34,370 nt of DNA from Polyangiaceae bacterium (GTDB lineage Bacteria; Myxococcota_A; Polyangia; Polyangiales; Polyangiaceae): NCBI GenBank assembly GCA_947502375.1, contig CANMZR010000003.1, positions 1-34,370 of the forward strand. The letters are read 5' to 3'. The notes beneath the pieces were generated by a model. That model was not told where the DNA came from. It saw only the letters and a list, made by a program, of their open reading frames with translations, and ran no database searches. The translations under genes and the position numbers were made by a program. Numbering within the stretch: the first letter of the stretch is position 1; each line of letters opens with the position of its first letter. This document shows positions 1 through 26,252 of this stretch, piece after piece.

Positions 1-1530
1 CTCTTGCGACTCTTGGCCGCGATCCACGAGCGCCTCTTGCCGGGCGGCGTCTTCGTGATGCAGACCCCCAATGGGCAAGGTCTTTTCCCAAACCAGGTGA
101 TCTACGGAGACCTCACGCACGTGACGATCTTCACGCCCGATTCTCTGGGGCAGGTCCTGCGGCTCACGGGCTTCGAGGACATCCTCGTCACCGAAGCTGG
201 CCCCGCGATGAAGTCGCTTATCGGCGTAGCCAGGCTCGGCCTTTGGAATGTAATCAAGGTCGGCGCGAAGGCCGCGCGCATCATCGAGACTGGCAAGAGT
301 CAGGCGATTTGGACGGAAAACATGCTCGGCCGTTGCCGCCGCCCGGGCAGACTACCCGAGCTCGCCATGCCGTCCCCTGCGACGCCGCGCGTCGAGCTCA
401 GCGCACCGAGCGCGGCGTCGCCGTTGCGGTCACAAGAGAGTCGCCCGCGGGTGATAATCATTGGTCAAGCCATCTTCGACATGATGATGGACTCGTATCG
501 TCGCGCGCTCGAGCCGCACTACGAGGTGCTCGTGGTCGATCCTTACTCGATTCTCGCCGACCTCGAGAAGCGCTTATTCGGGCCGCACTTCGGAGCGCAA
601 GTCAACCGAGTCGCCGCGACGTTTTCGCGAGTGATGATGGGCGGAGAACTCGCACTCGCGGAAGGGCGCATCGTTCGCGAAGTCGAAGCCTTCAGCCCGA
701 GCATCATCCTCACCGATAGCGTGCACGACTTGCGCCCCGAGCTCATCGACCGGATCCGCCGCGCGAGCCCAAACGCAAAGCTTCTCGGGAGATTCGGCGA
801 CGCGCTATCGAATTTTGGACGCGGCTACTGCTTTGTCGCCGAGTACGATCGGCTGTTCTTCAAAGACCACTACATCGTCGACAAGCTGCGCGCGAAGCTG
901 CCCTCCAAGCACCTCTACTACCTCCCGCAGTCTTGCGATCGGCACATTCATCGCTCGGTGGCCGTCAGCGACGCCGACCGCCGACGCTATGGCTGCGACG
1001 TTGGGCTTTATGGCAACGGCTACCTCTACCGCGCGGAGTGCCTGAAGCCGCTCCTGGGGCACGACGTCAAGATTTGGGGCGGAGGCTTGCCGCGCTGGGC
1101 GTCTCACGCGACGGCGCCGATGTTCACTGGCCACTACGTTGCGGGTGAAGAAAAATGCCGAGCGATGCTCTCGGCGAAGATCGCTCTGAACCCGAATCAC
1201 TACGCCGAGATCGCGGGCACGAACAAGCGCACCTTCGAGCTCGCCGCAATCGGGGCCTTCCAGCTTACGGACACGCCCGCGCTCGCCGACGTGTTCGACC
1301 CAGCCACAGAAGTCGCACAATACGACACCGCGGATGACCTCCTCGAGAAGATCGATTTCTACCTGGCCCGACCCGAGCTGCGAGCAGAAATGGCCGCAAA
1401 AGCGCAGCGCCACGCGCACGCGGCCCACACCTACGAGCACCGCTGGGTCGCGATGCTCGAGACGCTCGGCTTACGCCCGCCCGAGGGTTTTCCCGTCCAG
1501 CCGGAAGACCTCAGTCTCCGCGCGGTGTGA
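1..1530 (+). CDS. Methyltransferase (C-terminal part) fused to CgeB-like glycosyltransferase; truncated at the left edge
   Basis: Frame is open to base 1. N-terminal 'LLAAIHERLLPGGVFVMQTPNG' resembles the late motif of class I SAM methyltransferases. After a linker, 'RVIIIGQAIFDMMMDSYRRALEPHYEVLVVDPY...KIALNPNHYAEIAGTNKRTFELAAIGAFQLTDTPALADVFDP' matches the CgeB/Glyco_trans_1_2 pattern. Confidence 0.8.
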   Translation, partial: LLRLLAAIHERLLPGGVFVMQTPNGQGLFPNQVIYGDLTHVTIFTPDSLGQVLRLTGFEDILVTEAGPAMKSLIGVARLGLWNVIKVGAKAARIIETGKSQAIWTENMLGRCRRPGRLPELAMPSPATPRVELSAPSAASPLRSQESRPRVIIIGQAIFDMMMDSYRRALEPHYEVLVVDPYSILADLEKRLFGPHFGAQVNRVAATFSRVMMGGELALAEGRIVREVEAFSPSIILTDSVHDLRPELIDRIRRASPNAKLLGRFGDALSNFGRGYCFVAEYDRLFFKDHYIVDKLRAKLPSKHLYYLPQSCDRHIHRSVAVSDADRRRYGCDVGLYGNGYLYRAECLKPLLGHDVKIWGGGLPRWASHATAPMFTGHYVAGEEKCRAMLSAKIALNPNHYAEIAGTNKRTFELAAIGAFQLTDTPALADVFDPATEVAQYDTADDLLEKIDFYLARPELRAEMAAKAQRHAHAAHTYEHRWVAMLETLGLRPPEGFPVQPEDLSLRAV

Positions 1531-1558
1531 GCGTGGCGCTCCGCGACTTAACGCGAGC

Positions 1559-3184
1559 TCACCCTGGATCGACCGCGCGCCTAGCGCCGGTGCCGACCGG
1601 TCCGTTGACGTAACCGCCCCAAAGAATCACTTCGCTTACCGCCTTGCCGGTCCAAACGCCGACATTGTCGCTACGTTTCGTGAGCGCCGCATCTTCTGGA
1701 AAAGACGACCACGTCCCCCCGTTGGCGCCTGGCCGCCAAACGCCGCCATCGCCGAGAACGGTCTCGCAACCGGCATCGTTGCAGCCGCCCCAAAGGAAGA
1801 TCCCTGCGTTCAAGGTGACGCCAAAGTAGCGTGCACGGGGCGAAGGAGCCGCGGGGTCAGCCGGTTTCAATTTGTACCAGTAACCATCGAGGGCATTGGC
1901 AGCGAGATCCCAGAAGAAAAGCGTGTCTCCGTACACATCGCCGCCGTTCCAACCGCCGAACAGGTAAAATCCCAAACCTTGAGTCGGACTTTGTGGAAAC
2001 GCCGACAAACTCTCGAGGACGCCGGTCGGCGGTGAGCCTCCATTGGGCGGCGCGCCAACGCTCATATCGACGACCGTCCAGGCATTGGTGCCCGGATCGT
2101 AGAACGCGCCGTTGCTGAACCAATCAAAGCTGTCGGTTCCGCCCCAAACGTAAAGATAGCCGTTCGGTTTGAGGTTCGTCGGAGGCTGCCAGCCATATGA
2201 AAAATTAGACCGCGCACTCGGCTGACCCGCGGTCGCCATGGCGCCCCACGTGTTGGTTGCCACGGTGTAAACGCCGCCTGTGTTCACGGCACCAGCGGCA
2301 TTGCGACCGCCCCAGACGAGGATCTTTGTGCCGGTGTAGACCATGGCATGGGCTTGGCGCGGAAGGGGCTGAGCAGTGGTCGCCATGGCGGTCCAAGAGT
2401 CGGTCGCGAGATCGTAGATCCCCCCGGTGGGAGCCAGGGCATTCCCAGTGCCATAGCCACCCCAAATGTACATCTTCGTCCCGATCCAGACAGCCTCATG
2501 ATCGTGACGCGCGAGCGGGGCATTCACGGTCGATATCGGCGCCCACGTATCGGTCAGGGGCGTGTAGGCGTAGCCCGTGTCCGTCAGGCCCACCTTCGTA
2601 AAGCCACCCCACACGATCATCTTTGTCCCTGTCCAAATGGCCGAGTGGTTGTAGCGAGCGGAGGGCGCACCCACCGTCGTGATGGCAATCCAGGTGTTGC
2701 AGTTGCCCGCACCGTCGCAAGATGCACCCGTGCCACCATCCTTGTAACAGGCAGAAAACTTCGCGGCAGGGGTGAGCGCGCACATGCCTGCCGCGCACGA
2801 CCAGCCGCAGCTCCCACTCCCACAATCGGCCGCGACCTTGCAGGTCTTGCCACCACCGCTCGCGCTCGACGCCGCCGCCGTCGATTGGGCACTGCTCGAC
2901 GTCACTGTCGTGGCAACCGTACTGCTCGCGGCCATCGTCGAGGTGCTCGCCCCGGCACCGCCCATGCCGACCGTGCCTCCGACTCCTTGAGTCGCGGTTC
3001 CCCCGGAACCCACGGACGCACCTGCGCCACCTACGCCGTTAACGACAGCGCCACCCACTCCACCACCGGAGGCCGTGACCTTCGGAAAGACAACGACACT
3101 GCCATTGTCGCTGCAAGCCACACCGTGAAGAAGCGCGAGACCGATGAGGACGAAGATCGATAGTCGTTTAGGGTCGGCTAGCAT
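1559..3184 (-). CDS. Kelch-repeat lipoprotein with Gly/Ser/Thr/Ala-rich linker and Cys-rich segment
   Basis: Signal peptide with lipobox-like 'LLHGVAC'; low-complexity linker; Cys-rich 'CKVAADCGSGSCGWSCAAGMC'; repeated 'PSARYNHSAIWTGTKMIVWGG..' Kelch units. Confidence 0.85.
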   Translation of the reverse strand: MLADPKRLSIFVLIGLALLHGVACSDNGSVVVFPKVTASGGGVGGAVVNGVGGAGASVGSGGTATQGVGGTVGMGGAGASTSTMAASSTVATTVTSSSAQSTAAASSASGGGKTCKVAADCGSGSCGWSCAAGMCALTPAAKFSACYKDGGTGASCDGAGNCNTWIAITTVGAPSARYNHSAIWTGTKMIVWGGFTKVGLTDTGYAYTPLTDTWAPISTVNAPLARHDHEAVWIGTKMYIWGGYGTGNALAPTGGIYDLATDSWTAMATTAQPLPRQAHAMVYTGTKILVWGGRNAAGAVNTGGVYTVATNTWGAMATAGQPSARSNFSYGWQPPTNLKPNGYLYVWGGTDSFDWFSNGAFYDPGTNAWTVVDMSVGAPPNGGSPPTGVLESLSAFPQSPTQGLGFYLFGGWNGGDVYGDTLFFWDLAANALDGYWYKLKPADPAAPSPRARYFGVTLNAGIFLWGGCNDAGCETVLGDGGVWRPGANGGTWSSFPEDAALTKRSDNVGVWTGKAVSEVILWGGYVNGPVGTGARRAVDPG

Positions 3185-3281
3185 GATGATGCCGAGCTTA
3201 CAGGCGCAACGGCCCTTTGCACAATCGCCATCGATTGCGGTGAGCTTCGAGTTAACTTGGCTCCGGCTAGCTCTCCACCCC

Positions 3282-4418
3282 GTGCGCGTCCTTCAACTCA
3301 ACCCGACCTTCTACCCGAGCACCCGCGATGGTGGTCCGAGCGAAAGCTTGTTGTTGCTCGCACGGGGGCTCCTCGCCGCAAACGTCGAGCTCGAGATCGT
3401 GACCACCAACGGAGACGGTCCGACGAACAGCCACGTGCCGCTCGGCGCGAGCACGTTCTATAAGGGCGTTCCGGTGCGGTACTTCAACCGATTTCCGAAG
3501 CTCGGTTACGCGCCATCCCAAAGTTTGCTGCGTCACCTGAAGCGCGTGGCTCGCGACGTCGATCTTGTCCACGTGCACGCGCTCTTCAATTTCCCATCCA
3601 CGGCGGGGGCCGCCCTTTTGCGATCGATGGGGGTGCCGTACGTGACCTCACCACGAGGGATGTGCGAGCCGTGGGCACTCGGGCATCGCTCGTGGAAAAA
3701 GTGGCCCTACTGGCGAGCCATCGAACGCGGAAACGTCGCCGGCGCGCGAGCGGTGCATGCCACGAGCGATGAAGAGGCGAGCCAGCTTCGGTTGTTGTTC
3801 CCGACGCAAGACGTGTTTGTCGTGCCGAACCCGGTCGAGTTGCCGAGCGAACCTCTCGACGTCGCGCGAGCCGCGAATCGAATTGTTTTTCTCGGGCGCC
3901 TGCACCCGGTCAAAGGCCTCGAGGTGCTCGTCGCCGCGATGAGCCTCCTGACGAAGCGTCATCCCGACGTGGAGTTGGTGCTCGCCGGACCCGACCACCA
4001 TGGCGAGCTTGCCCGCGTCGAAGCGCGCTTGGCCTCGCTCGCACCACGGCCGAACGTTCGCTGGATAGGCGAGGTTCACGGCGACGCAAAGTCTCGGTTC
4101 CTCGCGAGCGCAACCGCTCTCGCGCTCACCTCGCACAGCGAGAGTTTCGGTCGAACCGTGGTCGAGGCCCTGGCGCACGGCACGCCCGTCGTCGTGAGTC
4201 GCGCGTGCCCGTGGGCGAGCGTCGCGCAACATGGCGCAGGTTTCTGGGTCGACAACGAACCCGAGGCCGTGGCCGACGCGTTGGCCCGTATTCTGGAAGC
4301 TCCAAGCGGCGGACACACGATGCGCTTGGCGGCACGAACGCTCGCGAACGATTACGACGTAGACCGCATCGGACGGGCCATGCTGGACGAGTACCGACGC
4401 GTCCTCGCAGCGCCTTAG
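3282..4418 (+). CDS. Glycosyltransferase, GT4/group 1 family
   Basis: Provided ORF starts at 3144, but GTG at 3282 ('VRVLQLNPTFYPSTRDGGPSESL') is the more likely start. GT4 signatures 'RIVFLGRLHPVKGLEVLVAAM', 'LTSHSESFGRTVVEALAHGTPVVVS'. Confidence 0.88.
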   Translation: MRVLQLNPTFYPSTRDGGPSESLLLLARGLLAANVELEIVTTNGDGPTNSHVPLGASTFYKGVPVRYFNRFPKLGYAPSQSLLRHLKRVARDVDLVHVHALFNFPSTAGAALLRSMGVPYVTSPRGMCEPWALGHRSWKKWPYWRAIERGNVAGARAVHATSDEEASQLRLLFPTQDVFVVPNPVELPSEPLDVARAANRIVFLGRLHPVKGLEVLVAAMSLLTKRHPDVELVLAGPDHHGELARVEARLASLAPRPNVRWIGEVHGDAKSRFLASATALALTSHSESFGRTVVEALAHGTPVVVSRACPWASVAQHGAGFWVDNEPEAVADALARILEAPSGGHTMRLAARTLANDYDVDRIGRAMLDEYRRVLAAP

Positions 4419-5962
4419 TCGACTCGTCCTGGGATGATCACCTTCTCCGCGAAGAGCACGACCACCCGCAGCACAACGTAACTGAACGCAGCAGAATGAA
4501 ACGCGCCGACAAGAACATTGCCCGCATCGGACTCGATGTTGAGAAGCCCCGCGAGCGCCGCGGAAGCGAGCAGGAGCATGCCGTCCCCGCCTTGACCGTG
4601 GTTGAAGAGCGCATAAAGCGCCCGGTAATAAAGGCCGACGACGGCCATCCCGACGAAGACGCCGAACATGCCGAAGTTCACGTACATCTCGACGATTTGT
4701 GCAAAGTTGAACGACGTGTCGTGATCGAGGGGGTTCAACAAGCGGTAGCGATGTCCGAACTCTTGCCCGAGGGCCTGAAGCGGACGCTCGGGCGCGAGGA
4801 TACGCGGCACGAAGGCCCAAAACATGACGCGGTAGGTCTCACCGTCGAGGTAGGGGATCCGATGGGGCGTCTGATTGATGATGAAGGCGAACGTGCCGAG
4901 GTAGCTTGTGCGCTCGGTTGACGTGCGGGAAGCGTTCGAGGCGAAGCGATCTCGGTCACTGGTCGCTTGGTCAAACGTCAGGTCGAAAAAGAGGGCCACG
5001 CGGTCGAACGGACCGACGTAGGTGTTGCGGACCTCTTTGCGGAACGCGTGTTTGCTGTGGGCAAACGGCATCGAGAGAAGCACGCAGAGCAAGCCGGCGC
5101 GCCACGGGATGGTACCGCGCTCCGCTACGTACACGAAGAACATCGGGACAAGCGCCCACGCCACCTGCGCCAACGCCCCGCTCGCGAGCGAGAACATCAC
5201 GTAAGTGACGTAACAGAGGAAGGCCGCGATGCGCTGCGGCAGCCGGAGCTTTCCTCGCAGATGGAGGACGAGCATTCCGCCGAGCAGCATGAGCGGCATG
5301 CGCACCGACACGTTCGCAATCGCCTTGAGCGAAGGGGCGATGTCCTTGGATGAGGTGAGCACGACTGCGGAGAGCGCAACACCGCCCGCGGCGAGCACGA
5401 TGCAGTACCAAGCGAGCCTGTCGAGCTCGATGTGCATCTTCAGTCGCGGCAACTTGTCGACGATTTTTCCGAGCGGCGAGTAGAAGGCGAGTTGCATCAA
5501 GAGCAAGCCGCCGAGGGTCACCACAACCGCCGTCGTCACCTCCTCGCCTTCGTAGGGCCGATTCTTGAGAAGCACCGTGCCCAGGAACACCGGCAGACCA
5601 AAATACATGAAGTAAATAAGGTTGATGATGGGGAAGATCGGCGCCTGCTTGGGCTTGCGCCGAACGACATCGAACATCGGCACCGTCGCGACCCAGAGCA
5701 TCGCAGACGCCGCGACGAGCCGGCTGACAGGTAAATCCGCCGGCGCAAAATAAAGCAGCAAAAGATTGAGAATCCCGACGACGGCGACGTACGTCGTCGT
5801 CCTCGTCACAGCACCGACACCCGCCACGAAGCTCGAATCCGATGCGGCCCTGGCTTGAGCACGCCGCGTCACAGCCGCCGCATCGCGACCTGATCCGGTC
5901 CCCACCTGCAACGGAGACCGCGGCGGCGGCGATTCGCCGGGGGGCGTGCTCGCGAGCGTCAT
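4415..5962 (-). CDS. Polytopic membrane protein, O-antigen polymerase (Wzy-like)
   Basis: Multiple hydrophobic segments; a soluble loop and 'FNFAQIVEMYVNFGMFGVFVGMAVVGLYYRALY' near the C-terminus; sits among glycosyltransferases. Confidence 0.65.
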   Translation of the reverse strand: MTLASTPPGESPPPRSPLQVGTGSGRDAAAVTRRAQARAASDSSFVAGVGAVTRTTTYVAVVGILNLLLLYFAPADLPVSRLVAASAMLWVATVPMFDVVRRKPKQAPIFPIINLIYFMYFGLPVFLGTVLLKNRPYEGEEVTTAVVVTLGGLLLMQLAFYSPLGKIVDKLPRLKMHIELDRLAWYCIVLAAGGVALSAVVLTSSKDIAPSLKAIANVSVRMPLMLLGGMLVLHLRGKLRLPQRIAAFLCYVTYVMFSLASGALAQVAWALVPMFFVYVAERGTIPWRAGLLCVLLSMPFAHSKHAFRKEVRNTYVGPFDRVALFFDLTFDQATSDRDRFASNASRTSTERTSYLGTFAFIINQTPHRIPYLDGETYRVMFWAFVPRILAPERPLQALGQEFGHRYRLLNPLDHDTSFNFAQIVEMYVNFGMFGVFVGMAVVGLYYRALYALFNHGQGGDGMLLLASAALAGLLNIESDAGNVLVGAFHSAAFSYVVLRVVVLFAEKVIIPGRVD

Positions 5963-7113
5963 CCGCTACTCGGGTTTGCGCGGCTGAAACCGCGCAGCCG
6001 CCGCTGCAAAGGCAACTCGATGGCGCGGTGTGTGACCATGGCCACGGAGCATAACATGACGAAGAATATCGCGAAGTCCACGCCCGACGACAACCCGCTC
6101 ACGTTTTTCCGCCAGACCAACCAGAGCGGGGCTTGCAGGATATAGATGCCAAAGCTGGCTTCGCCCAAGCGTACGAGTGTCGGCCCGGAAAGCGCGACGG
6201 AAACCGGCGAGGCTTTCAATGCAACGGCGAGCATCACTGCCGCAAAAGCGGGGCTGAGAAGGCCATTGTGAATCAGCGGATGGAATGCGCTCACCGGACG
6301 GCTGACCACGAGCGCAATCGCACCCAGGCCGAGGGCGCCGAGGAGCAGAGGGCGGCGAAGGACGCGCGAGCCATTCGCGGGGTCGGCCAACTGGGCGTGA
6401 AAGACGTCGGCAAGCAGGATCCCGAGGACGAACGTCGGCACGTGCAAGAGCGGCTGGTACTTGACGGCCGCGAGCTGAAGGTCCCCGACGCCGAACATCA
6501 TGTAGAGAATCGGCACGAGCAAAGAGCTCATCCACACGACGAGCGCGAGTCCCCTGCGCGACGTGCGCTGCGATAGCAAACGCGGCAAAACCCAGGGGAA
6601 TATCGCGTAAAAAAAGGCTTCGACGGAGATCGACCAACTGGGCGGGTTCCACCACGCGTGCGCCCCCGGGAGCCAAGCCTGAACGAGTCCCAAGGAGACC
6701 ACGGCCGCGACCACGAGCTTGAGAACGCGCATCAGAGGGGCCGCGTCCGTGGCGAGGCGGTGGGCGACGACGAACGGCGCGGTCACGAGCCAGGCTGTAA
6801 AATAAAGTGGGAAAACCCGCGAAAAACGGTTCATCCAGAACGCGCGGCGGGTACCTCGGAGTGCGACGACCGATGCCGAGCGCTCCGCGTAGGAGTAGGC
6901 GAGGATGAAGCCCGAGAGGAGATAGAAGAAATTGACGCCGAGGTAGCCGTGAGAAGCTGCGTTGCGGAGGCCGGATGGCGTTCGCGTTGGCAAGGCTGCT
7001 GCCGCGTGATGGTAGAAGACCACCCAGGCCGCGGCGAAAAAGCGTAGCCCCGTGAGGGCGGCGAGCGACTCGCGCTTCTCGGCGAGCCTGGGCTGTCGGA
7101 CCACCTCGCTCAT
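5959..7113 (-). CDS. Acyltransferase family 3 (OafA/YrhL-like) membrane protein
   Basis: 'LAALTGLRFFAAAWVVFYHHAAAALP', 'GYLGVNFFYLLSGFILAYSY', 'WSISVEAFFYAIFPWVLPRL' are classical Acyl_transf_3 motifs. 4-bp overlap with the downstream gene. Confidence 0.92.
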   Translation of the reverse strand: MSEVVRQPRLAEKRESLAALTGLRFFAAAWVVFYHHAAAALPTRTPSGLRNAASHGYLGVNFFYLLSGFILAYSYAERSASVVALRGTRRAFWMNRFSRVFPLYFTAWLVTAPFVVAHRLATDAAPLMRVLKLVVAAVVSLGLVQAWLPGAHAWWNPPSWSISVEAFFYAIFPWVLPRLLSQRTSRRGLALVVWMSSLLVPILYMMFGVGDLQLAAVKYQPLLHVPTFVLGILLADVFHAQLADPANGSRVLRRPLLLGALGLGAIALVVSRPVSAFHPLIHNGLLSPAFAAVMLAVALKASPVSVALSGPTLVRLGEASFGIYILQAPLWLVWRKNVSGLSSGVDFAIFFVMLCSVAMVTHRAIELPLQRRLRGFSRANPSSG

Positions 7114-7193
7114 CCTATCCGAGCCTAGCGGTGCGTTTCATCGAATGCCGCTTTTTTGTGTCGCCTCCAGGCTGCATGGCATGGTGACCGCGA

Positions 7194-8123
7194 ATGAGCG
7201 GGGTTGCACACGCGAGGCCGGCGGTTTCGGTACGGCTCTGGGAGGGAGACAACGTTGCGGTGCTCGACGGCCTGGCAAAGGAAGGCGTGAAGGTGGAACT
7301 CGCCTATCTCGACCCACCCTTCTACACGCAGCGCCTGCACCTGCGAACGGTACGGCGTGGCCGTGGCGCCACGCTCGAGCGCGAACAGGTCGCAGCCTTC
7401 GATGACCGGTGGCCATCCTTCGAGAGTTACCTGGATGCCACGGAGGCTCGCATCGTGCGCGTGCGCGAGTTGCTCGCCGACGTCGGCTCGATGGTGCTCC
7501 ACGTCGATTCGACCACGAGTCATTACCTGAAGGTGATGTGCGATCGCATCTTCGGGCGCGATGCATTCGCCAGCGAGATCATCTGGCGATATCGTCGCTG
7601 GCCAGCAAAAACTCTCAATTTCCAGCGGGTTCACGACGTTCTTTTACGCTACGTCAAGGCACCCAAGATGGCGCCGCGCTTCAACCAACTCTACGAACCG
7701 CTCGCCCCATCGACCATCGCAACCTGGGGACGCACAAAGCAACTCGCCGCCTTCGGAGCCGACGGTCGAAGGGTCCGCTCCACCCGCACGGAAGCCGCTT
7801 CACCAGGTGTTCCGATGGGCGACGTCTGGGAAATCGGGGTGATAGCGCCGATCGCGCGTGAGCGAACGGGCTACCCGACGCAGAAGCCTGAAGCGCTCTT
7901 GCGACGCGTCGTGGAGAGCTTGAGCAACCCCGGAGACACGGTGCTCGATCCCTACTGTGGCAGCGGGACAACCCTGGCGGTTGCAGCGGCCCTGGGTCGT
8001 AACGCCATTGGCATCGACGCCAGCGCCGAGGCCCTGACGGTCACTCGAGCGAGGCTGAGCGGTGCCGGGCAATCTGTTATTCTTTCAAAGCTCGATGCGA
8101 CTCGAATGGCGGCAGACGCCTGA
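7194..8123 (+). CDS. Site-specific DNA methyltransferase, beta class (N6-adenine or N4-cytosine)
   Basis: Motif IV 'YLDPPF' precedes motif I 'DTVLDPYCGSGTTLAVAAALGRNAIGIDAS'; 'YPTQKPEALLRRVVESLSNPGD'. Confidence 0.88.
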   Translation: MSGVAHARPAVSVRLWEGDNVAVLDGLAKEGVKVELAYLDPPFYTQRLHLRTVRRGRGATLEREQVAAFDDRWPSFESYLDATEARIVRVRELLADVGSMVLHVDSTTSHYLKVMCDRIFGRDAFASEIIWRYRRWPAKTLNFQRVHDVLLRYVKAPKMAPRFNQLYEPLAPSTIATWGRTKQLAAFGADGRRVRSTRTEAASPGVPMGDVWEIGVIAPIARERTGYPTQKPEALLRRVVESLSNPGDTVLDPYCGSGTTLAVAAALGRNAIGIDASAEALTVTRARLSGAGQSVILSKLDATRMAADA

Positions 8124-8799: not shown

Positions 8800-9975
8800 T
8801 TGAGTAGTGGGATGGGTTCGTTCGGAAAACTCCTAGGGTGCGCCTTCGCGGTAACCTCGACGCTCGTGGCGGGTTCCGCGCGGGCGGATAAGATGGATCC
8901 AGCGCTCGAGCGCTACGTCCTGAACAGCCGCTGCATCGCAAGCGTCAACGGGGTGGGGAGTTACTACGCCCCGACCGCAGGTTTTGCTCGCTGCCTCCCG
9001 AACGACCTCGCCTTTTCCAAGCTCGTCGCGCAGATGGGAGCAGCCATCGCTCCCGTTCCTTCGTACTCTGCCAGGACCACCGGATTCGGCGGCTACAAGG
9101 TTGGAATTCAAGGGGTCTACACGACGATCGATTCCGACGCCCCGTACTGGAAAAATGGAACCCAGGGCCCCGTCGACAAGTCGACGAACCAGAGTTCCAT
9201 CATCAACAGCAATCCGGACTCGATGTTGCAGCTCTACTCCGTACGACTCGCAAAGGGATTTCCCTTCGGACTCGAGGTCGGGGCGAGCTTCGGCCACCTG
9301 GTGAACACCTCCCTGGTCGCGGGAGGAGGCGACGTGCGGCTCTCACTCCTCGAGGGTTTTCGAACCAACCTTCCGCTCGGGTATCTGCCGGATCTCGCGG
9401 TCGCGGGCAGCATCCGAACGATCAGCGGAACCTCCCAGCTCAAGCTGACGGTGGCCTCGTTCGACACCATGATCTCAAAGCCTTTTCCGATTGCCGGCAG
9501 CGTCGTCTTTCAGCCGCATGTCGGGTACCAATGGGTGCGAATCTTCGGAGATTCCGGCGTGGTGGACATGACGCCAAACAGCGAGCCCGTGGGGCACTGC
9601 GGGTACACAGGCGACAACAATCCCGCCACGCCAGACGCTTCGAAGACGCCACTCGACGGCCAACCCGTGTGCGCCGGTTCGAGTGCGGACTTCAACAACA
9701 ACGTCGTCTTCGACGCCGTCCGACTCACCCGTCATCGAATCAATATCGGCGCGGACTTCCGTTTTCAGATGGTTTACTTCGGTCTCAACGTGCTCGCGGA
9801 CCTCATCCCGGTCGCCGAAGCGAACACGGCCCTGAAGACCGTACCCGACGGCACCGATCCGAGCGCCTCAAAGACGGTCGCCGTCAACCCGTTTGCGGAT
9901 GATCCTCGCACGATCGAAAACGACGCGGTAAAATCCCAGCTGACCCTCGCCGCGGAGCTCGGCGCCGTCTTCTGA
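8800..9975 (+). CDS. Putative outer-membrane beta-barrel protein with signal peptide
   Basis: Signal peptide 'LLGCAFAVTSTLVAGSARA'; alternating amphipathic strands; ends in Phe (...AAELGAVF). Start may be TTG at 8800 or ATG at 8812. Confidence 0.6.
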   Translation: MSSGMGSFGKLLGCAFAVTSTLVAGSARADKMDPALERYVLNSRCIASVNGVGSYYAPTAGFARCLPNDLAFSKLVAQMGAAIAPVPSYSARTTGFGGYKVGIQGVYTTIDSDAPYWKNGTQGPVDKSTNQSSIINSNPDSMLQLYSVRLAKGFPFGLEVGASFGHLVNTSLVAGGGDVRLSLLEGFRTNLPLGYLPDLAVAGSIRTISGTSQLKLTVASFDTMISKPFPIAGSVVFQPHVGYQWVRIFGDSGVVDMTPNSEPVGHCGYTGDNNPATPDASKTPLDGQPVCAGSSADFNNNVVFDAVRLTRHRINIGADFRFQMVYFGLNVLADLIPVAEANTALKTVPDGTDPSASKTVAVNPFADDPRTIENDAVKSQLTLAAELGAVF

Positions 9976-10051: not shown

Positions 10052-11731
10052 ATGACCCAATTGACCCGTGAATTGCTCGCCAAACGTCTCGAATTTGGGG
10101 ATCTCGACGAATGCGGCACGCTCCCCGCGCTCCGGCTCAGGTTCGGTCCCGGGAGTTCGCATCGCGCGGTTCCTTTCAATGAACTCGGGCGCCGTGCACG
10201 AGCAGCGGCCCTCGCCTTGGCTAAAGCGGGCGCACGCGAAGGCGACCGCATCGCCCTCTTGATGCCGCATTCGCTGCTGCTGGTGGCCTCGTTTTTCGGC
10301 GCGATCCACGCCGGTATGACTCCGGCGATCATCGCTTGGCCAACCGCCAAAATGGATCCGGACAAGTACCGCCGAAACATCCACGCGGTGGTTTCACGAC
10401 TCGGTGCACGCTTCATCGTCACTGACGCTCGCATGGTAAGCGAGCTTGGCGCCTCGCTCGGAGACGCGACCGTGCTCGATGCGGCACTGCTCGAAGGCGA
10501 GCTCGAGGCCGCCCTGGCTCCGGTCCAACGCCACGAGAACGAGCCGCTGTTCATCCAGTTCTCGGGTGGAACGACGGGCACGCAGAAGTCGGTACCGATA
10601 ACGACCGAACGGCTCTTCCGACAACTCGCCGCCTTCGACGCACGGGTTGAGCTCACCGAGGACGACCGCGTGATTTCGTGGCTGCCGCTCTATCACGACA
10701 TGGGCCTCGTGGCCTGCCTGCTCCTGCCGTTCGCGTTCCGCCTCACAGTGAGCATGTTCGCACCCATGGAATGGGTACTCGACCCAAGCCGTTTTCTCGA
10801 AGCCGTCGCAGAAGACCGTGCAACCTTGTGTTGGCTTCCGAATTTCGCTTTCAGCTTCATGGCGAAACGCGCACGTTTGACGGACGGTGCCGCGCTGTCC
10901 TCGCTCCGAGCGCTCATCAACTGCAGCGAGCCGGTGCGCGACGAAAGCATGTGCGCCTTTCGTGAGCGGTTTCAAGTCAACGGCCTGAGACCCGCGGCCT
11001 TGCAAACTTCTTACGCGATGGCCGAGGCCACCTTTGCGGTGACCCAGTCGGTCGTGAGCGATCCGCCCCGCACGTTACGCGTTTCACGGGACCACCTGAG
11101 TCGCGGGCTCGTCGTTGTCGATCCATCCGGGGAGCGCGTGCTCGTCTCATGCGGCGCGCCCATTTTGGACGTGGAGGTACGCCTCAACCCGAGCACAGCC
11201 GAGAATTCCGTCGGGGAAATCGAGTTGCGTGGCCCTTTCATGATGGACGATTACCTCGCGGGCGAAGAGCAACCGAGGCGGTGGGCCTTCGATCCGGAAG
11301 GCTGGTATCGCACGGGGGATCTCGGTTTCCTTCACGACGCACACCTCTACGTGACGGGGCGAAAGAAGGACGTCATCATCGTGGGCGGAGTGAACATTTA
11401 CCCGGAAGATATCGAGCAAGCGGTATCCGAGCTCGACGGGGTGCATCCCGGTCGCGTGGTGGCCCTCGGGCTGGAGGATGATGCGCTTGGGACGGAGCGA
11501 CTCGTGGTGATTGCGGAAGCGAATACGGCCCTCGACCTTGCGAACGCGGACCTAATCGAAGCGAGCATCCGCAAAACCGTGATCATCTTCGCGGGGCTCG
11601 CACCAAGTCACGTGTTTGTCGTCCCGCCGCGCTGGATCGTCAAGAGCACCGCCGGCAAGATCTCACGAACTGAAACGCGAAAGCGCGTGCTTGAACGCTG
11701 GGACAGCATCGAAGCAAGGACATTTGAATGA
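10052..11731 (+). CDS. AMP-dependent acyl ligase, fatty acyl-AMP ligase-like
   Basis: 'LFIQFSGGTTGTQKSVPIT' P-loop; 'RVISWLPLYHDMGLVACLLLPF'; 'GWYRTGDLGFLHDAHLYVTGRKKDVIIVGGVNIYPEDIEQ'; catalytic Lys region 'TAGKISRTETRKR'. Confidence 0.88.
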   Translation: MTQLTRELLAKRLEFGDLDECGTLPALRLRFGPGSSHRAVPFNELGRRARAAALALAKAGAREGDRIALLMPHSLLLVASFFGAIHAGMTPAIIAWPTAKMDPDKYRRNIHAVVSRLGARFIVTDARMVSELGASLGDATVLDAALLEGELEAALAPVQRHENEPLFIQFSGGTTGTQKSVPITTERLFRQLAAFDARVELTEDDRVISWLPLYHDMGLVACLLLPFAFRLTVSMFAPMEWVLDPSRFLEAVAEDRATLCWLPNFAFSFMAKRARLTDGAALSSLRALINCSEPVRDESMCAFRERFQVNGLRPAALQTSYAMAEATFAVTQSVVSDPPRTLRVSRDHLSRGLVVVDPSGERVLVSCGAPILDVEVRLNPSTAENSVGEIELRGPFMMDDYLAGEEQPRRWAFDPEGWYRTGDLGFLHDAHLYVTGRKKDVIIVGGVNIYPEDIEQAVSELDGVHPGRVVALGLEDDALGTERLVVIAEANTALDLANADLIEASIRKTVIIFAGLAPSHVFVVPPRWIVKSTAGKISRTETRKRVLERWDSIEARTFE

Positions 11732-11751
11732 GTCAGGTCGAATGAGTCAGG
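11726..11751 (+). repeat. 14-bp tandem duplication at the ligase/ACP junction
   Basis: GAATGAGTCAGGTC (11726-11739) followed by GAATGAGTCAGG (11740-11751). Confidence 0.85.
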
Positions 11752-11981
11752 AATTGTTAACGATCCGCGAAACGGTGGCGCGGCATTTGCGGCGCAAACC
11801 CAAAACTTTCGACGACGCGACGCCCATCGTATCGGGTGGCCTCATCGACTCGATGTCGCTCATCGACCTCATCCTCGATCTCGAGACGGCCACCGGCGTC
11901 CGCATCCCGGCGGCCGAAGTGCAACCAGACGATTTCGACTCGATAGCGCTCATCGCTGCGACCGTCGCGCGCTTTCGCTGA
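11742..11981 (+). CDS. Acyl carrier protein (phosphopantetheine attachment site), DltC-like in pattern
   Basis: 79-aa protein 'MSQELLTIRETVARHLRRKPKTF...GGLIDSMSLIDLILDLETATGVRIPAAEVQPDDFDSI'; DS(M) motif for the 4'-phosphopantetheine Ser. The provided ORF is longer (11616) but overlaps the ligase. Confidence 0.88.
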   Translation: MSQELLTIRETVARHLRRKPKTFDDATPIVSGGLIDSMSLIDLILDLETATGVRIPAAEVQPDDFDSIALIAATVARFR

Positions 11982-11994
11982 GACCAGGGCGTCC

Positions 11995-13194
11995 TTGGAA
12001 ACCATACCCACCGCCCCGCCCATTCACGAATTGAAACGCGGACTTTCCGGAGCGCGGCTCCTCGGGCTCGGCGTGGCGGCGCTCGCGTGCATGGCGGCCC
12101 TTGGCCACACGAACGTTCTCGAAAAGGTGGCAACGGCACTGACCGGCGCGGAGGCGCGACTCGTGACGCCGTCGCCCGAACCGGAAGCCTGGGACGAAAA
12201 GCGCGGAGGCACGTTGTTGACGACACTACGAGCCCTGCAGCCGCTGCCCGAGGGCACGCGGCGGGTGCTCATGCTGGGCAACTCGCAGCAATACACCGTT
12301 CCCCCGCCAAAAGATGGGAGCGCAGTAGGGACGTTGCGTCCCCGAATCACCAGCATGCGCCTCAGTGCGAGCTTGGAGGCCGAGGCGCCCGGGAAGCTGC
12401 GCGTCTACAACGGCGCGGTCGACAACCAAAACTTCACCGAGGCGCTCTGGCAATCCCTCTTTTGGCTGGAACTGTCGGCCCAAAAACCCGCCGCACTCGT
12501 GCTCCAGGCGAGCTTCGATACGTTGCGAAAAACGGGAATTCGAGGTGGTTATCAGACTCTCCTCGATGAACCACGTTTTCTCGACGCGCTCCACCTGCGA
12601 CTCACCAAGGGAGCGAGGCCATACCATCCGGACTTCGTCGCCGCCGAAAAACAGTGGCGCGAACGCACGGCACAACTCGCGACCGAGACGACGCCGAACG
12701 AGTGGAAGCAGTGGTCCCCCGAACCCGCGCTTCGGGCCGCGATGAATCACACGGAGCTCTTTCGGCGCCGCGAAGGCTCGAAGGGACAATTGCTCGGGAT
12801 GCTTTACGCCATTCGGGTCCGCGCACTCGGCATCAGCCCGCGCACGAAGCGGCACATCGTCGGAGCGCCGCTCGAACAGAATCTGGCCGCGCTCGATGAC
12901 CTGATGGCGCTTGCCAAGGAAAAACACTGCGCCATCGTGCTCTACAACGCGCCGACGAACCCCGCCGTCGACATGTTCTTCGTGGAAGAATACCAGGCGT
13001 ACGTCGAACAACTGCGAGCCCTGGCGCTGAAGCACGGCGCTGCCTTCGAAGAGCTCGGAAAGGCCGTCCCTGACGCCCATTGGGGGTACCTCATCGACGG
13101 ACCGGACCCCATTCACTTTGACGAAACCGGGCACACCATCGTGCACGACAAATTGCTTCGGCCGCTGCGCATGAGCCTCGGAATGGACCGCTGA
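11995..13194 (+). CDS. Membrane-anchored SGNH-hydrolase-like protein (DltD/AlgJ-like role)
   Basis: N-terminal TM 'LLGLGVAALACMAALG'; 'RRVLMLGNSQQYT' as nucleophile block; C-terminal 'GPDPIHFDETGHTIVHDKLL' as Asp-x-x-His block; immediately upstream of an MBOAT gene. Confidence 0.65.
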   Translation: METIPTAPPIHELKRGLSGARLLGLGVAALACMAALGHTNVLEKVATALTGAEARLVTPSPEPEAWDEKRGGTLLTTLRALQPLPEGTRRVLMLGNSQQYTVPPPKDGSAVGTLRPRITSMRLSASLEAEAPGKLRVYNGAVDNQNFTEALWQSLFWLELSAQKPAALVLQASFDTLRKTGIRGGYQTLLDEPRFLDALHLRLTKGARPYHPDFVAAEKQWRERTAQLATETTPNEWKQWSPEPALRAAMNHTELFRRREGSKGQLLGMLYAIRVRALGISPRTKRHIVGAPLEQNLAALDDLMALAKEKHCAIVLYNAPTNPAVDMFFVEEYQAYVEQLRALALKHGAAFEELGKAVPDAHWGYLIDGPDPIHFDETGHTIVHDKLLRPLRMSLGMDR

Positions 13195-13197
13195 ACG

Positions 13198-14616
13198 ATG
13201 TTGTTCACGAGCTTCACGTACATTCTTTTCCTGTGCCTCGTCATTCCATTGGTGCGGAGCACCGAGGGCGTGTGGCGCGAGCGCGTGCTCCTCGGCGCGA
13301 GCCTGGTTTATTATGCGGCGTGGGACGTGCGATTCGTCGCCCTCTTGCTCGCGCTCGGGGTGTTCACGCACGCGGCGGGTCACCGCATTGCAGCGGCGCG
13401 AAAAAGTGGCACCAAGCCTCGTTTCGGGAACGCCACTGCGCCCGTCGTGGCCATTCTCCTCGTGCTCGCTGCGTTCAAGTACACCCGCTGGCTCATGGAG
13501 TTGCAGAACGCGCTCGGCGGGACCCAGTTCACGCTGCCGAAGATCATTCTGCCCCTCGGCATCTCGTTCTTTACGTTCGAGTGCGTGAGTTACCTGCTCG
13601 ACGTTCAGAAGGGCGGCGCGGAGCTGACCCCATTGCGTCGGTTTTTGCTATTTCCAGCCTACTTTCCGCATCTGGTCGCAGGTCCTATTCTACGAATCAA
13701 AGAGTTCGCGCCCGAACTCGACAAGCTCCGCCGTGCCACCTGGCTGGAGACGCTCGCCGGCATCGACCGAATCGTCATCGGTCTCCTGAAGAAGGTGGTG
13801 CTGGCGGATTCGTTGGCGCTGTTCGTCGACCAAGGCTTCAGTGCCAGCCCCGGTCGTGTCGGAGCCCTCGACGCCTGGGCGCTGACGATCTCTTTCGCGC
13901 TGCAAATATTTTTTGATTTCTCGGGCTACAGCGACATCGCCATCGGCGTATCGAGGATGGTTGGGATCCGGCTTCCCGAGAACTTCAACTTGCCGTACCA
14001 CGCCGAAAGCCCAAGCGACTTTTGGAACCGTTGGCACATGACCCTCTCCAGGTGGGTTCGCGATTACCTGTTTTTTCCGCTCAATATGCGAGCCGGCAAG
14101 CGCGTGTGGCTGCGTTACGTGTTTCTGGTGCTCGTCATGTCCTTCGTGGGCTTGTGGCACGGCGCGGGCGTGGGCTTCGTCATCTGGGGCGCGTGGCACG
14201 GCGTCTTGATGGTGCTTCACCGCGTGGCTCAGAGACGCGTCGGGCATCTTGAGGATGGTCCGCGGATCCCGCTTGAACGCGTCGGGCGCGTGGTATCGCT
14301 CATCCTGCTCGTCGCGGCCTGGGTTCCATTTCGTGCCCCGACGCTCGCCGCTGCAACCGCGATGCTCCGGGCCATGTTCACGCTCCGTGGCTTTCGCCCC
14401 GCGTACTCGATCAACGACTACCTATTCGCGCTCGCATGTCTCGCCGGCTATGTCGTCCTCGTGCCACGCGTCGAACGGTTCGTGCAGCGTGATCCGGAAA
14501 CGCACGAGGTCAACGGTCGTACGTTCTGGCTCCGTGCTCCCCTTTATGCGCTCGCGGTTCAGTTCCTGTTCATGTTTGACCGCAGCAACATCGCGTTCAT
14601 CTACTTTCAGTTCTGA
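13198..14616 (+). CDS. MBOAT family membrane-bound O-acyltransferase (AlgI/DltB-like)
   Basis: 'SFFTFECVSYLLDV', 'FFDFSGYSDIAIGVSRMVGIRLPENFNLPYHAESPSDFWNRWHMTLSRWVRDYLFFPLN', 'GLWHGAGVGFVIWGAWHG' are hallmark MBOAT motifs. Confidence 0.95.
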   Translation: MLFTSFTYILFLCLVIPLVRSTEGVWRERVLLGASLVYYAAWDVRFVALLLALGVFTHAAGHRIAAARKSGTKPRFGNATAPVVAILLVLAAFKYTRWLMELQNALGGTQFTLPKIILPLGISFFTFECVSYLLDVQKGGAELTPLRRFLLFPAYFPHLVAGPILRIKEFAPELDKLRRATWLETLAGIDRIVIGLLKKVVLADSLALFVDQGFSASPGRVGALDAWALTISFALQIFFDFSGYSDIAIGVSRMVGIRLPENFNLPYHAESPSDFWNRWHMTLSRWVRDYLFFPLNMRAGKRVWLRYVFLVLVMSFVGLWHGAGVGFVIWGAWHGVLMVLHRVAQRRVGHLEDGPRIPLERVGRVVSLILLVAAWVPFRAPTLAAATAMLRAMFTLRGFRPAYSINDYLFALACLAGYVVLVPRVERFVQRDPETHEVNGRTFWLRAPLYALAVQFLFMFDRSNIAFIYFQF

Positions 14617-14628
14617 ACGGCCCACCGC

Positions 14629-15423
14629 TCATCCGGGAGTGAGCAACCCCAAAGCCTCCGCGGCCGCAGCTTGCTCGGCAAGCTTCTTCGAGCGGCCATT
14701 GCCCGTTGGAGCCACCGTCCAGCATGGCGAGCCATCTGGCGAGATCTCGTCCGGCTCCGAGCCCGACGCGAGTGGACCGTGGAGGCAAACGACCGCTTCG
14801 ACGCAGAACTCACGGGCGTGGGGAGGTCCCTTTTCGGCGACGACCCGATACCGAGGCGGCGGGAGGCCCCTGGATTGCAGCAACTCTTGCAGCCGACTCT
14901 TGGCATCGCGCTCGGCCCCGCCGGTGGAAACAAGTCTCTCGATGCGCTCGGCGAGTATCCGTTGAACGAGGCGTCGCGAAGCCTCGAGCCCGGCATCGAG
15001 GTAGACGCAGCCCACGAGCGCTTCGAGGGCGTCCGCGAGCACGTTCGGTCGGAGGCGCTCCCCGGTGGTGTCAGCCCCGCGACCGACGCGTAACGCTTTA
15101 TCGAGCTCGTGCTCGCGGGCGAGCTCGGCGAGCACATTTGCGTTGACGAGCGACGAACGCATCATCGTCAACTCTCCCTCGTCGACCCCTTCGAGAGTCG
15201 TCATGAGAAGTTCGCTCACGCACAGCCCAAGCACGGAATCACCGAGAAATTCGAGCCGCTGGTTGTCACTCGGCGCCTCGCTCGCTGGACCGCGATGCTC
15301 GTTCGTGAAGCTCGGGTGCGTCAGCGCCTCCGCCAGGTGGGGCGAAGCCGGATCGATCTCGAGGCGCGCGAGAATGCGCTCGAGCGCAGAGCGTCGTTCC
15401 GTCTCCCTCTCACTTGAGTCCAT
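14629..15423 (-). CDS. rnc: Ribonuclease III
   Basis: 'NQRLEFLGDSVLGLCVSELL' signature; 'NVLADALEALVGCVYLDAG'; C-terminal dsRBD 'KSRLQELLQSRGLPPPRYRVVAEKGPPHAREFCVEAVV'. Confidence 0.95.
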   Translation of the reverse strand: MDSSERETERRSALERILARLEIDPASPHLAEALTHPSFTNEHRGPASEAPSDNQRLEFLGDSVLGLCVSELLMTTLEGVDEGELTMMRSSLVNANVLAELAREHELDKALRVGRGADTTGERLRPNVLADALEALVGCVYLDAGLEASRRLVQRILAERIERLVSTGGAERDAKSRLQELLQSRGLPPPRYRVVAEKGPPHAREFCVEAVVCLHGPLASGSEPDEISPDGSPCWTVAPTGNGRSKKLAEQAAAAEALGLLTPG

Positions 15424-24279: not shown

Positions 24280-26103
24280 TCAAGCCGCTTGCGCTTTGGA
24301 CCCCGGTCGAGGCGCAGTTTGGGTATCCGGCGTTCGCTTCGCGGTGGAACGGATCGCGGCGACGTCGGTCACCCGAAGTGCGAGCGCGACCAGAATTTCA
24401 GCGGTCATCGCAGCGGTGGGTAGGCGCGGCGAGAGGGTGAAGACGCGCTCATCGGGCTTGCGCCCTAACGTGATTCGAGCACTTCGACTGAGCGCTGCGA
24501 GAGCGAGATCGCAGGCCGAACCCTCGACCACGCGGAGGAGAATTTCAGGCATGGGCACGCGCGCACCCAAGCCGACGGCATAGGTCATCCCGACCTCGAT
24601 CGACGTAAACCCACGCAGGGGCAATCGTGGCACGACCATGAGGCGCAGCTCATCCGCGTCGACGTCGCCCGAGGGAATACGAACCCGCGGGACGAGTCGA
24701 AGCCCGGCCGTCCCGCTGCGTTTACGAAGGTTTTTTACGAGCCTTCGAAAGAATACCGCCGGCTCGACGGCGAGGTCCGGCGGCAGGGTGCCAAGCCGCC
24801 CCGTACCGAACACTGCGAGAACCACCACGACGTCGAGGGCGACCTGGACAGCTTGTTGTGGAGCGCGCGACCAAAGGAGGGTGGCCCCGACGAAAAATGG
24901 CGCCATTGAGAGCAAAAATAGGAGTTTCCCCGAGGTCGTCGCAAGGTCGAGCGGCGCGCCTCGAGGCCGCACGGGCTTCACGAAAGCATCGGCCTCGCTT
25001 ATCGCAAGCCAACGCCCTGGGCCACGGAGGGCCGCGGCCTGATCGAGGCAGGCGACGCCATGGGCCGCCAAGAAAACAGCCATCACAATCGTGAGCGCGC
25101 CGAGAACGGGACGACTGGCGAGCAGCTGTAAATAGATTCCGGCGACCAGGGCACCGGCGGCCATCGGCACGCGCAGCCACTCGGGCCCCGGCACGACCGG
25201 CGGCATGGTGGACTTGGCGGCCGCGGCAAGCCTTCGGACCTGGCGTCCTTTCAGCCCAATCAACAACGCATAGAGGACGAATACGAGAGCCCCAACACCG
25301 CGAAGCGCGCGCCCATGGAGCATCTCGAAAACGGGTTCGAGTGGGGCGGGAAGCGGGTGGAGCAGGTCGGGGGGAAGAGCCAATCCTTCGACGGCCCGTG
25401 CGTCGGCGCGGATCATCCACACGACCGCGGCACCTTCTGGCACGTAAGCACGAACGAGGTCGACCTCATCGCTGGCGCTGGTCCGTCGCACCTCGCTCAA
25501 GAAAGCGACGCCGTCGGCATCTTCCGAAGATTCCACCGCGCGGGGAGCGGTGGGGGCGGGCGGCAGTGAAAATACCACACGCACATTGTCGAGGCCGACG
25601 CCAACGCGTGGACCGTGCCACTCGACGAGCATCATCGCCGCCTCGCGACGAACGAGGCCGCGCCCCTTCAAGTCGGTACGGTAGCGAAAGACGAAGACGT
25701 AAGCCCCGCGGCCCAGGCCCTTTGCATCGTCCACACTGAGGTCGAGATCACGGGCGTCGCTTGGGCTCGCCGGACCATCCGCCTGGAACGGTGCTTCCAC
25801 GAGGGCAAGCTTCAGCGGCACAGCCGAAACCAACGAGTTCCCGAGGGCTTCCGTGGCCGGGACCACGTAAGCATTGGGGAGCGGAACCGCATCCGGGTCG
25901 ACGCTCTTCAAGACGACGCCCCGCTGCCGTTCGTTGCCGTTGAGACGCACTGCGAGACGATGCTCCACCGTCGCGGTACCCGTTGAGTCGAGTTCGATCC
26001 GCACCTCATCGCTGGTGATGCGATTGTCTCGCCACGCGTAAGCGGGCCGCGCAACCGCAAAGCTCGCGAGGGCGCAGAGCCACCAGACAACACGACGAAT
26101 CAT
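24280..26103 (-). CDS. Large membrane protein of unknown function, DUF2207-like topology
   Basis: Signal peptide 'MIRRVVWWLCALASFAVARPAYA'; extracytoplasmic beta-rich N-terminus; several TM segments. ATG at 26103 preferred over 26121. Confidence 0.6.
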   Translation of the reverse strand: MIRRVVWWLCALASFAVARPAYAWRDNRITSDEVRIELDSTGTATVEHRLAVRLNGNERQRGVVLKSVDPDAVPLPNAYVVPATEALGNSLVSAVPLKLALVEAPFQADGPASPSDARDLDLSVDDAKGLGRGAYVFVFRYRTDLKGRGLVRREAAMMLVEWHGPRVGVGLDNVRVVFSLPPAPTAPRAVESSEDADGVAFLSEVRRTSASDEVDLVRAYVPEGAAVVWMIRADARAVEGLALPPDLLHPLPAPLEPVFEMLHGRALRGVGALVFVLYALLIGLKGRQVRRLAAAAKSTMPPVVPGPEWLRVPMAAGALVAGIYLQLLASRPVLGALTIVMAVFLAAHGVACLDQAAALRGPGRWLAISEADAFVKPVRPRGAPLDLATTSGKLLFLLSMAPFFVGATLLWSRAPQQAVQVALDVVVVLAVFGTGRLGTLPPDLAVEPAVFFRRLVKNLRKRSGTAGLRLVPRVRIPSGDVDADELRLMVVPRLPLRGFTSIEVGMTYAVGLGARVPMPEILLRVVEGSACDLALAALSRSARITLGRKPDERVFTLSPRLPTAAMTAEILVALALRVTDVAAIRSTAKRTPDTQTAPRPGSKAQAA

Positions 26104-26252
26104 GACACCCTTGGTTCCCACTTTCCGGCGGTACTGGCCAAGTTAAAACGCTGAAAGGATAGCGATCGGGGCCTAAGGCAACGAGTCCGGTGGAGCGGGT
26201 ATCGAGAGGGTATTGGCCCGCCTTGAATTGTTCACAGTCGCCGGGATCGTGC

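Follow-up and report, generated by a model that had tools for sequence, protein, structure and literature searches.

A myxobacterial operon joining a fatty acyl-AMP ligase and its carrier to an MBOAT–SGNH pair: a candidate carrier-fed acyl relay towards the cell surface

The first 34,370 nt of contig CANMZR010000003.1 (assembly GCA_947502375.1), from a bacterium of the Polyangiaceae and hereafter called the window, carry a compact operon encoding a fatty acyl-AMP ligase (FAAL), an acyl carrier protein (ACP), a membrane-anchored protein of the SGNH family and a membrane-bound O-acyltransferase (MBOAT) (Table 1). The four genes all lie on the + strand with intergenic gaps of 10, 13 and 3 nt, coordinates and open reading frames agreeing with the description in an earlier note made from the sequence of the window. 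The same genes are found in the same order in a second species (G004, locus L004 on contig G004:C5; G and L numbers designate the genomes and loci compared, the window genome being G000), with identities of 74, 86, 72 and 81%, respectively. Such identity and conserved order show the frames to be coding and the set to be maintained. G004 falls within the genus of the window, which is myxobacterial, so that the Gram-negative host proposed as probable in the earlier note is borne out. No sigma-70 promoter was found within the operon, and terminators show no clear excess there.

Table 1. Coordinates of the operon, its surroundings in the window and the related sets discussed in the text
Feature	Coordinates	Strand	Remarks
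Fatty acyl-AMP ligase (FAAL)	10052..11731	+	559 aa, ATG start, PF00501 E 3e-48
Acyl carrier protein (ACP)	11742..11981	+	79 aa, ATG start, attachment motif GLIDSMS
Membrane-anchored SGNH-family protein, predicted acyltransferase	11995..13194	+	399 aa, TTG start
MBOAT, DltB-related	13198..14616	+	472 aa, ATG start, PF03062 E 7e-23
FIYFQF at the MBOAT C-terminus, FxYxxF acyl-shuttle motif	14596..14613	+	from sequence; motif definition in PMC12148441
Left flanking gene, secreted or outer-membrane-like	8800..9975	+	no Pfam family; left edge of empty site
Right flanking gene, ribonuclease III	14629..15423	-	right edge of empty site
Polysaccharide locus	1..7113		glycosyltransferases 1-1530, 3144-4418; Wzy-like 4415-5962; AT3 acyltransferase 5959-7113
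G002 set	L041 2216-7448 (G002:C46)		SGNH-MBOAT, then amino-acid adenylation ligase, ACP, GNAT acetyltransferase (donor half 4875-7448)
Second-kind (type II) sets	L039 4059-8574; L156 3924-8352; L189 6391-10905; L190 3704-8591		ACP-FAAL-MBOAT-SGNH

The best NCBIfam matches of the ligase are the fatty-acyl ligase models PRK07768, PRK09192 and MbtM, all below cut-off. Its score against TIGR01733, the model for amino-acid adenylation, is 103 bits (cut-off 317), and DltA models are absent from its best 25 NCBIfam matches. A sequence search of the PDB returned the FAALs 3kxw, 3pbk and 7wua as its closest solved structures; matches 1–18 are FAALs or carrier-loading adenylation domains, with coenzyme A (CoA) ligases far lower. 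In EcFAAL, CoA is excluded by residues W224, M231 and F279, a FAAL-specific helix runs to P259, and the pocket contains prolines P107 and P226 (PMC8460268, 2021). Alignment to a PDB FAAL places W210, M217, F265, P245, P97 and P212 of the ligase, respectively, at these positions. In a separate alignment, L166, a usual type of FAAL from this genome taken as positive control, keeps the pocket motifs, which are kept neither in the CoA ligase encoded at 29159-30898 of the window nor in the amino-acid ligase of L041, both used as negative controls. The FAAL insertion region of the N-terminal domain holds about 20 residues more in the ligase than in that CoA ligase, and aligns with the corresponding stretch of known FAALs. 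Identity as a CoA ligase was thus rejected, since the control lacks both the pocket motifs and the insertion. Lys536 of the ligase sits in STAGKISR. A structure model (mean predicted local distance difference test, pLDDT, of 72) matches FAALs at fold ranks 1–22, the first CoA-forming ligase appearing at rank 39. The agreement of PDB and fold matches, CoA-rejecting residues and controls makes the predicted identity as a FAAL firm at the level of sequence and modelled fold. The suspicion of the earlier note that the enzyme was closer to a FAAL than to an amino-acid-adenylating enzyme is therefore upheld by family models, PDB search and fold alike, and the enzyme does not belong to a CoA-ligase family. 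Its partner scores 29.2 bits against PF00550 (cut-off 20.8, E 1e-6), matches DltC models weakly and is 86% identical in L004; the DS motif already noticed in it corresponds to GLIDSMS.

The closest solved protein to the MBOAT is DltB (E 1.5e-32), although against the TIGR04091 DltB model it scores 187.9 bits, for a cut-off of 375, so that this equivalog level is not reached. The conserved His321 lies within LWHG. The C-terminus of the protein reads FDRSNIAFIYFQF, and its terminal FIYFQF, invariant in the MBOAT alignment, fits FxYxxF exactly. A hexapeptide shuttle of this kind was reportedly first described in a 2023 paper, and the use made of the motif here rests on a 2025 restatement. The tyrosine of FxYxxF is described as an “acyl shuttle” moving the acyl group from the MBOAT to the SGNH protein in PatA/PatB, and is carried by DltX in Dlt (PMC12148441). 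Almost all complete MBOATs surveyed (44 of 46) end in this motif or differ in the first F only. The motif is thus common among them, whereas an adjoining carrier module is not: among the 40 loci L075–L114, a ligase match is found in three only (L075–L077), and a fourth locus, L086, runs off its contig, its FAAL-ACP half lying on L158. An SGNH-MBOAT pair devoid of any carrier is also found (L125). In the MBOAT tree, the window protein groups with those of G004 and G002 (support 100) and the proteins of G104, G115, G126 and G124 form another clade (support 98), both clades being separate from 39 other MBOATs.

The SGNH protein has no sequence match in the PDB, and its PF13472 GDSL/SGNH match (E 7e-4) lies below cut-off but is backed by the fold search. 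Ser97 (GxSQ; LGNSQ), Asn144, Asp371 and His374 (DxxHF; GPDPIHF) are common to six relatives at 24–72% identity. A structure model built from the alignment of these relatives (mean pLDDT 69) matches SGNH esterases (E 6.5e-5), DltD 3bma (E 6e-4 over 384 columns) and PatB 8tlb (E 1e-2). A single N-terminal hydrophobic segment spans residues 19–37, within a helix modelled at 19–50. The membrane anchor seen in the earlier note and the Ser/Asp/His site that it proposed to check are both present, and the MBOAT partner suggests that the protein acts as a transferase rather than as an esterase. This family is rare: in a survey covering 184 genomes of the order and 377 sampled from the phylum, it was detected in 8 of the former and 7 of the latter. 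A search of genome contigs with the single SGNH protein retrieved one relative only.

FAAL, ACP, SGNH and MBOAT genes occur together in six myxobacterial genomes from four genera, in two gene orders. These sets, termed type I, encode the FxYxxF motif; they are arranged FAAL-ACP-SGNH-MBOAT in the window and G004, and SGNH-MBOAT-FAAL-ACP in G104, G115, G126 and G124, the last being the one split over contigs (L086 and L158). The four genes therefore stay linked in relatives, as the synteny survey suggested in the earlier note was meant to check. In G034, a remnant is seen (L124 6224-7666, contig G034:C31) in which the start of the SGNH gene runs into the end of the FAAL gene, followed by the ACP gene, the MBOAT gene being missing; it could result from a deletion or from an assembly fault.

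In a tree of 58 FAALs, all ten MBOAT-linked enzymes fall within a clade of 13 rows (support 100/100), apart from the 45 others; as the sampling was led by the profile of the MBOAT-linked FAALs themselves, this clade may look purer than it is. Type II, a second kind of set ordered ACP-FAAL-MBOAT-SGNH (G002, G176, G217 and G239), accounts for four of the ten. The remaining three rows are L040 of G002, L157 in a polyketide synthase, and a FAAL from a Leptolinea plasmid. In L040 (5630-8853, contig G002:C12), the FAAL is directly followed by a protein starting MTMQIVGNSHVSVFSRG, with a GNSH motif, in a sugar-nucleotide locus with no MBOAT. The plasmid FAAL (L183 11833-13515; AP024711.1, Leptolinea sp. 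HRD-7, Chloroflexota), the one member of this clade that a search of plasmids returned, is 38% identical and annotated as hypothetical, with no annotated MBOAT near it. Conversely, no ligase or carrier was seen in the three neighbourhoods of plasmid MBOATs that were inspected.

Further insight comes from the junction at which the operon lies. All five genomes of the genus carry both flanking genes. Their stop codons are only 74 bp apart in the sister species G002, whereas 4565 bp of operon separate the flanks in the window; in G003, too, the two genes lie near each other and enclose no such operon. This empty junction indicates that gain or loss took in the whole operon at once. Recent foreign origin is unsupported by composition, the GC content of the operon (61–64%) being equal to that of its flanks, and a chance neighbourhood was rejected in view of the linkage in six genomes and of the empty site. 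Elsewhere in its genome, G002 encodes the nearest relative of the SGNH-MBOAT pair (36–40% and 54–55% identity, also ending in FIYFQF), where another carrier-loading half stands in place of the FAAL-ACP half (L041). A similar transfer half is thus coupled to two different carrier-loading halves within one genus, and the donor half appears exchangeable. The L041 ligase scores above the cut-off for amino-acid adenylation (340 versus 317 bits); together with the added GNAT gene, this makes an amino acid, with or without an N-acetyl group, its probable cargo. In its own right, L041 looks like a myxobacterial system of the Dlt type that would place aminoacyl, perhaps N-acetylaminoacyl, groups at the surface.

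The polysaccharide locus, inside which the window contig starts, lies 3 kb upstream of the operon. It comprises genes for a Wzc-like kinase, a nucleotide-sugar epimerase, glycosyltransferases, a flippase-like protein, a Wzy-like protein and an AT3 acyltransferase, and has been retained in G000, G004 and G002. Adjoining the Wzy-like gene, the AT3 gene is a nearby member of another, unrelated class of surface acylation genes. The suggestion of the earlier note that this locus provides the acceptor stands as no more than a possibility: the locus is kept more widely than the operon, and since G002 has it while lacking this operon at this place, proximity by itself does not identify the acceptor. 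Of the six type I sets, four (G104, G115 and the G126/G124 pair) as well as the G034 remnant do lie within polysaccharide loci, their neighbours being glycosyltransferase, Wzz/Wzc, O-antigen ligase and sugar dehydratase genes. No teichoic acid gene was seen in the window, in line with the earlier reading.

Taken as a whole, these genes likely form one acyl relay, from an ACP-loaded group to an exported acceptor, which is the best explanation overall. It draws its support, from sequence and fold, on the FAAL, the carrier, the DltB-like MBOAT with its fused motif, the intact SGNH triad and the conserved linkage. The FAAL would use ATP to form an acyl-AMP and load the acyl group onto the phosphopantetheine arm of the dedicated ACP, a step strongly supported by family membership. 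By analogy with PatA and with DltB/DltX, the MBOAT would then take the acyl group from acyl-ACP on the cytoplasmic side and, through His321, pass it to Tyr469 of FIYFQF on the periplasmic side. The anchored SGNH protein would finally receive it on Ser97 and esterify an acceptor that has been exported, a surface polysaccharide being the likeliest. The relay mechanism itself can be put forward with good confidence on these analogies, and a polysaccharide acceptor with modest confidence. As cargo, a fatty acid or another carboxylic acid lacking an amino group is probable; the odds that it is a medium- or long-chain fatty acyl group are about even. Only tentatively can the full picture be drawn: a CoA-independent, carrier-fed route bringing whole fatty acids, in place of acetyl or D-alanyl groups, across the inner membrane through the tyrosine shuttle onto an exported polysaccharide, with exchangeable donor halves (FAAL-ACP or amino-acid ligase-ACP-GNAT) and transfer halves (SGNH-MBOAT), so that myxobacteria could alter their surface chemistry by donor swap. 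The relay had been proposed in the earlier note, which overlooked FIYFQF, the donor swap, the empty site and the wider spread of the 1-7113 locus. None of the three outcomes it had named beforehand as refuting this acyl-transfer reading (a ligase placed firmly among CoA ligases that do not load the carrier, an SGNH-like protein with no conserved triad, or genes unlinked in related genomes) occurred.

The same relay might serve an acceptor other than a polysaccharide, such as peptidoglycan, lipopolysaccharide (core or lipid A), a lipid of the outer membrane or a protein that is secreted. Peptidoglycan is what PatA/PatB modifies (PMC12148441), the gene directly upstream of the operon encodes a secreted or outer-membrane-like protein, and SGNH sequence similarity does not tell the acceptor. 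This possibility is nonetheless rather unlikely, as the four other type I sets are surrounded by glycosyltransferase, Wzz/Wzc, Wzy and nucleotide-sugar genes; peptidoglycan, moreover, is present in all myxobacteria, whereas the SGNH family is restricted to 8 of the 184 genomes of the order. It is improbable that two separate pathways merely lie side by side, the FAAL and ACP feeding a lipid precursor and the MBOAT using acetyl-CoA for plain O-acetylation. Such a split would account for the 36 of the 40 loci L075–L114 where MBOATs with the same C-terminal motif show no adjoining FAAL match, and for the carrier-less pair of L125. It sits poorly with a linkage that holds in several genera with the halves in either order, with the G002 FAAL-ACP half having been replaced by another carrier-loading half, not lost, and with the position of the MBOAT-linked FAALs in one clade.

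Production of a small secreted lipid or natural product, instead of an envelope decoration, looks quite improbable: FAALs have mostly been described in the assembly of polyketides and peptides (PMC11837247) and one FAAL of the same clade lies in a polyketide synthase (L157), but the surroundings of the operon showed no gene for a polyketide synthase (PKS), a nonribosomal peptide synthetase (NRPS) or a ketosynthase, and FAAL and ACP are followed only by a membrane relay whose SGNH and MBOAT components face the envelope. Least probable of all is a true Dlt system that attaches D-alanine, or some other amino acid, to a glycan, even though the four functions are the same, DltB is the closest solved MBOAT, DltD is among the fold matches, the carrier weakly resembles DltC and the sister-species set has an amino-acid-adenylating ligase. 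The ligase stays at a third of the amino-acid adenylation cut-off, with DltA models outside its best 25 matches and FAAL-specific residues and insertion, the MBOAT scores half of the DltB cut-off, and the shuttle motif is carried by the MBOAT, not by a DltX microprotein. With DltA and DltB cut-offs missed and no DltX, this candidate was rejected. Several points weigh against the relay reading preferred here, at least in its full form. FAAL membership leaves the chain length unfixed, the structure models are of moderate confidence, and G002 has the polysaccharide locus with no operon at this place. Type II MBOATs end about 80 residues early, with no FxYxxF, so that the shuttle step must differ there and FAAL-fed MBOATs need not all use this route.

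In the Dlt system, DltA, DltC, DltB and DltD act with DltX in the D-alanylation of teichoic acids. The window operon shares with it an adenylating ligase, a dedicated carrier, a DltB-like MBOAT and an SGNH protein, but has a FAAL in place of DltA and bears FxYxxF on the MBOAT itself, not on DltX, for which the gaps of the operon leave no room; moreover, it comes from a Gram-negative bacterium, and no teichoic acid genes were seen in the window. Dlt genes have been reported outside Gram-positives, for example in Dickeya. PatA/PatB, as well as AlgI/AlgJ/AlgX and WssH/WssI, are likewise Gram-negative and combine a C-terminal FxYxxF hexapeptide on the MBOAT with a membrane-anchored SGNH protein; the invariant MBOAT His and the SGNH triad of this type are also found here. 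Outside Dlt, MBOAT/SGNH systems are described as carrier-less and acyl-CoA-using (PMC12148441), whereas the window operon has a predicted FAAL and dedicated ACP built in, and would thus be a distinct variant. FAAL and stand-alone ACP modules of lipopeptide or polyketide pathways also have a FAAL next to a small ACP and the same CoA-rejecting residues, but the acceptor of the window module appears to be a membrane MBOAT relay instead of a downstream PKS or NRPS. The L041 set is similarly carrier-fed, with related SGNH and MBOAT proteins and the FIYFQF end, and differs by its amino-acid ligase and GNAT. By analogy, the front half of the operon would work like Dlt, and the back half like PatA/PatB or AlgI/AlgJ/AlgX.

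This predicted joining of a carrier-fed, Dlt-like front to a transfer end resembling Gram-negative O-acetylation systems is what seems new, no description of the combination having been found. The literature search, outside which most subscription papers fell, returned no paper joining MBOAT and FAAL, and the words MBOAT, O-acyltransferase and polysaccharide are absent from a 2025 review of bacterial FAALs. The acyl-tyrosine shuttle is known at two endpoints, Dlt with a carrier donor and the motif on DltX, and PatA/PatB with a CoA donor and a fused motif. A carrier donor with a fused motif is the missing combination, which allows a test of what sets the donor choice of MBOATs. If the cargo is a fatty acid, the operon would offer a bacterial route to amphiphilic surface polysaccharides. 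The use of a FAAL or an amino-acid ligase on one SGNH-MBOAT chassis also amounts to a natural experiment on cargo tolerance.

Two other features of the window deserve mention. A 613-aa open reading frame at 24280-26121 has no Pfam match at 1e-4. A putative N6/N4 DNA methyltransferase gene (7194-8123), with no restriction gene seen adjoining, lies between the polysaccharide locus and a SpoU-family RNA methyltransferase gene, and is kept beside these neighbours in G004, G002, G001 and G003.

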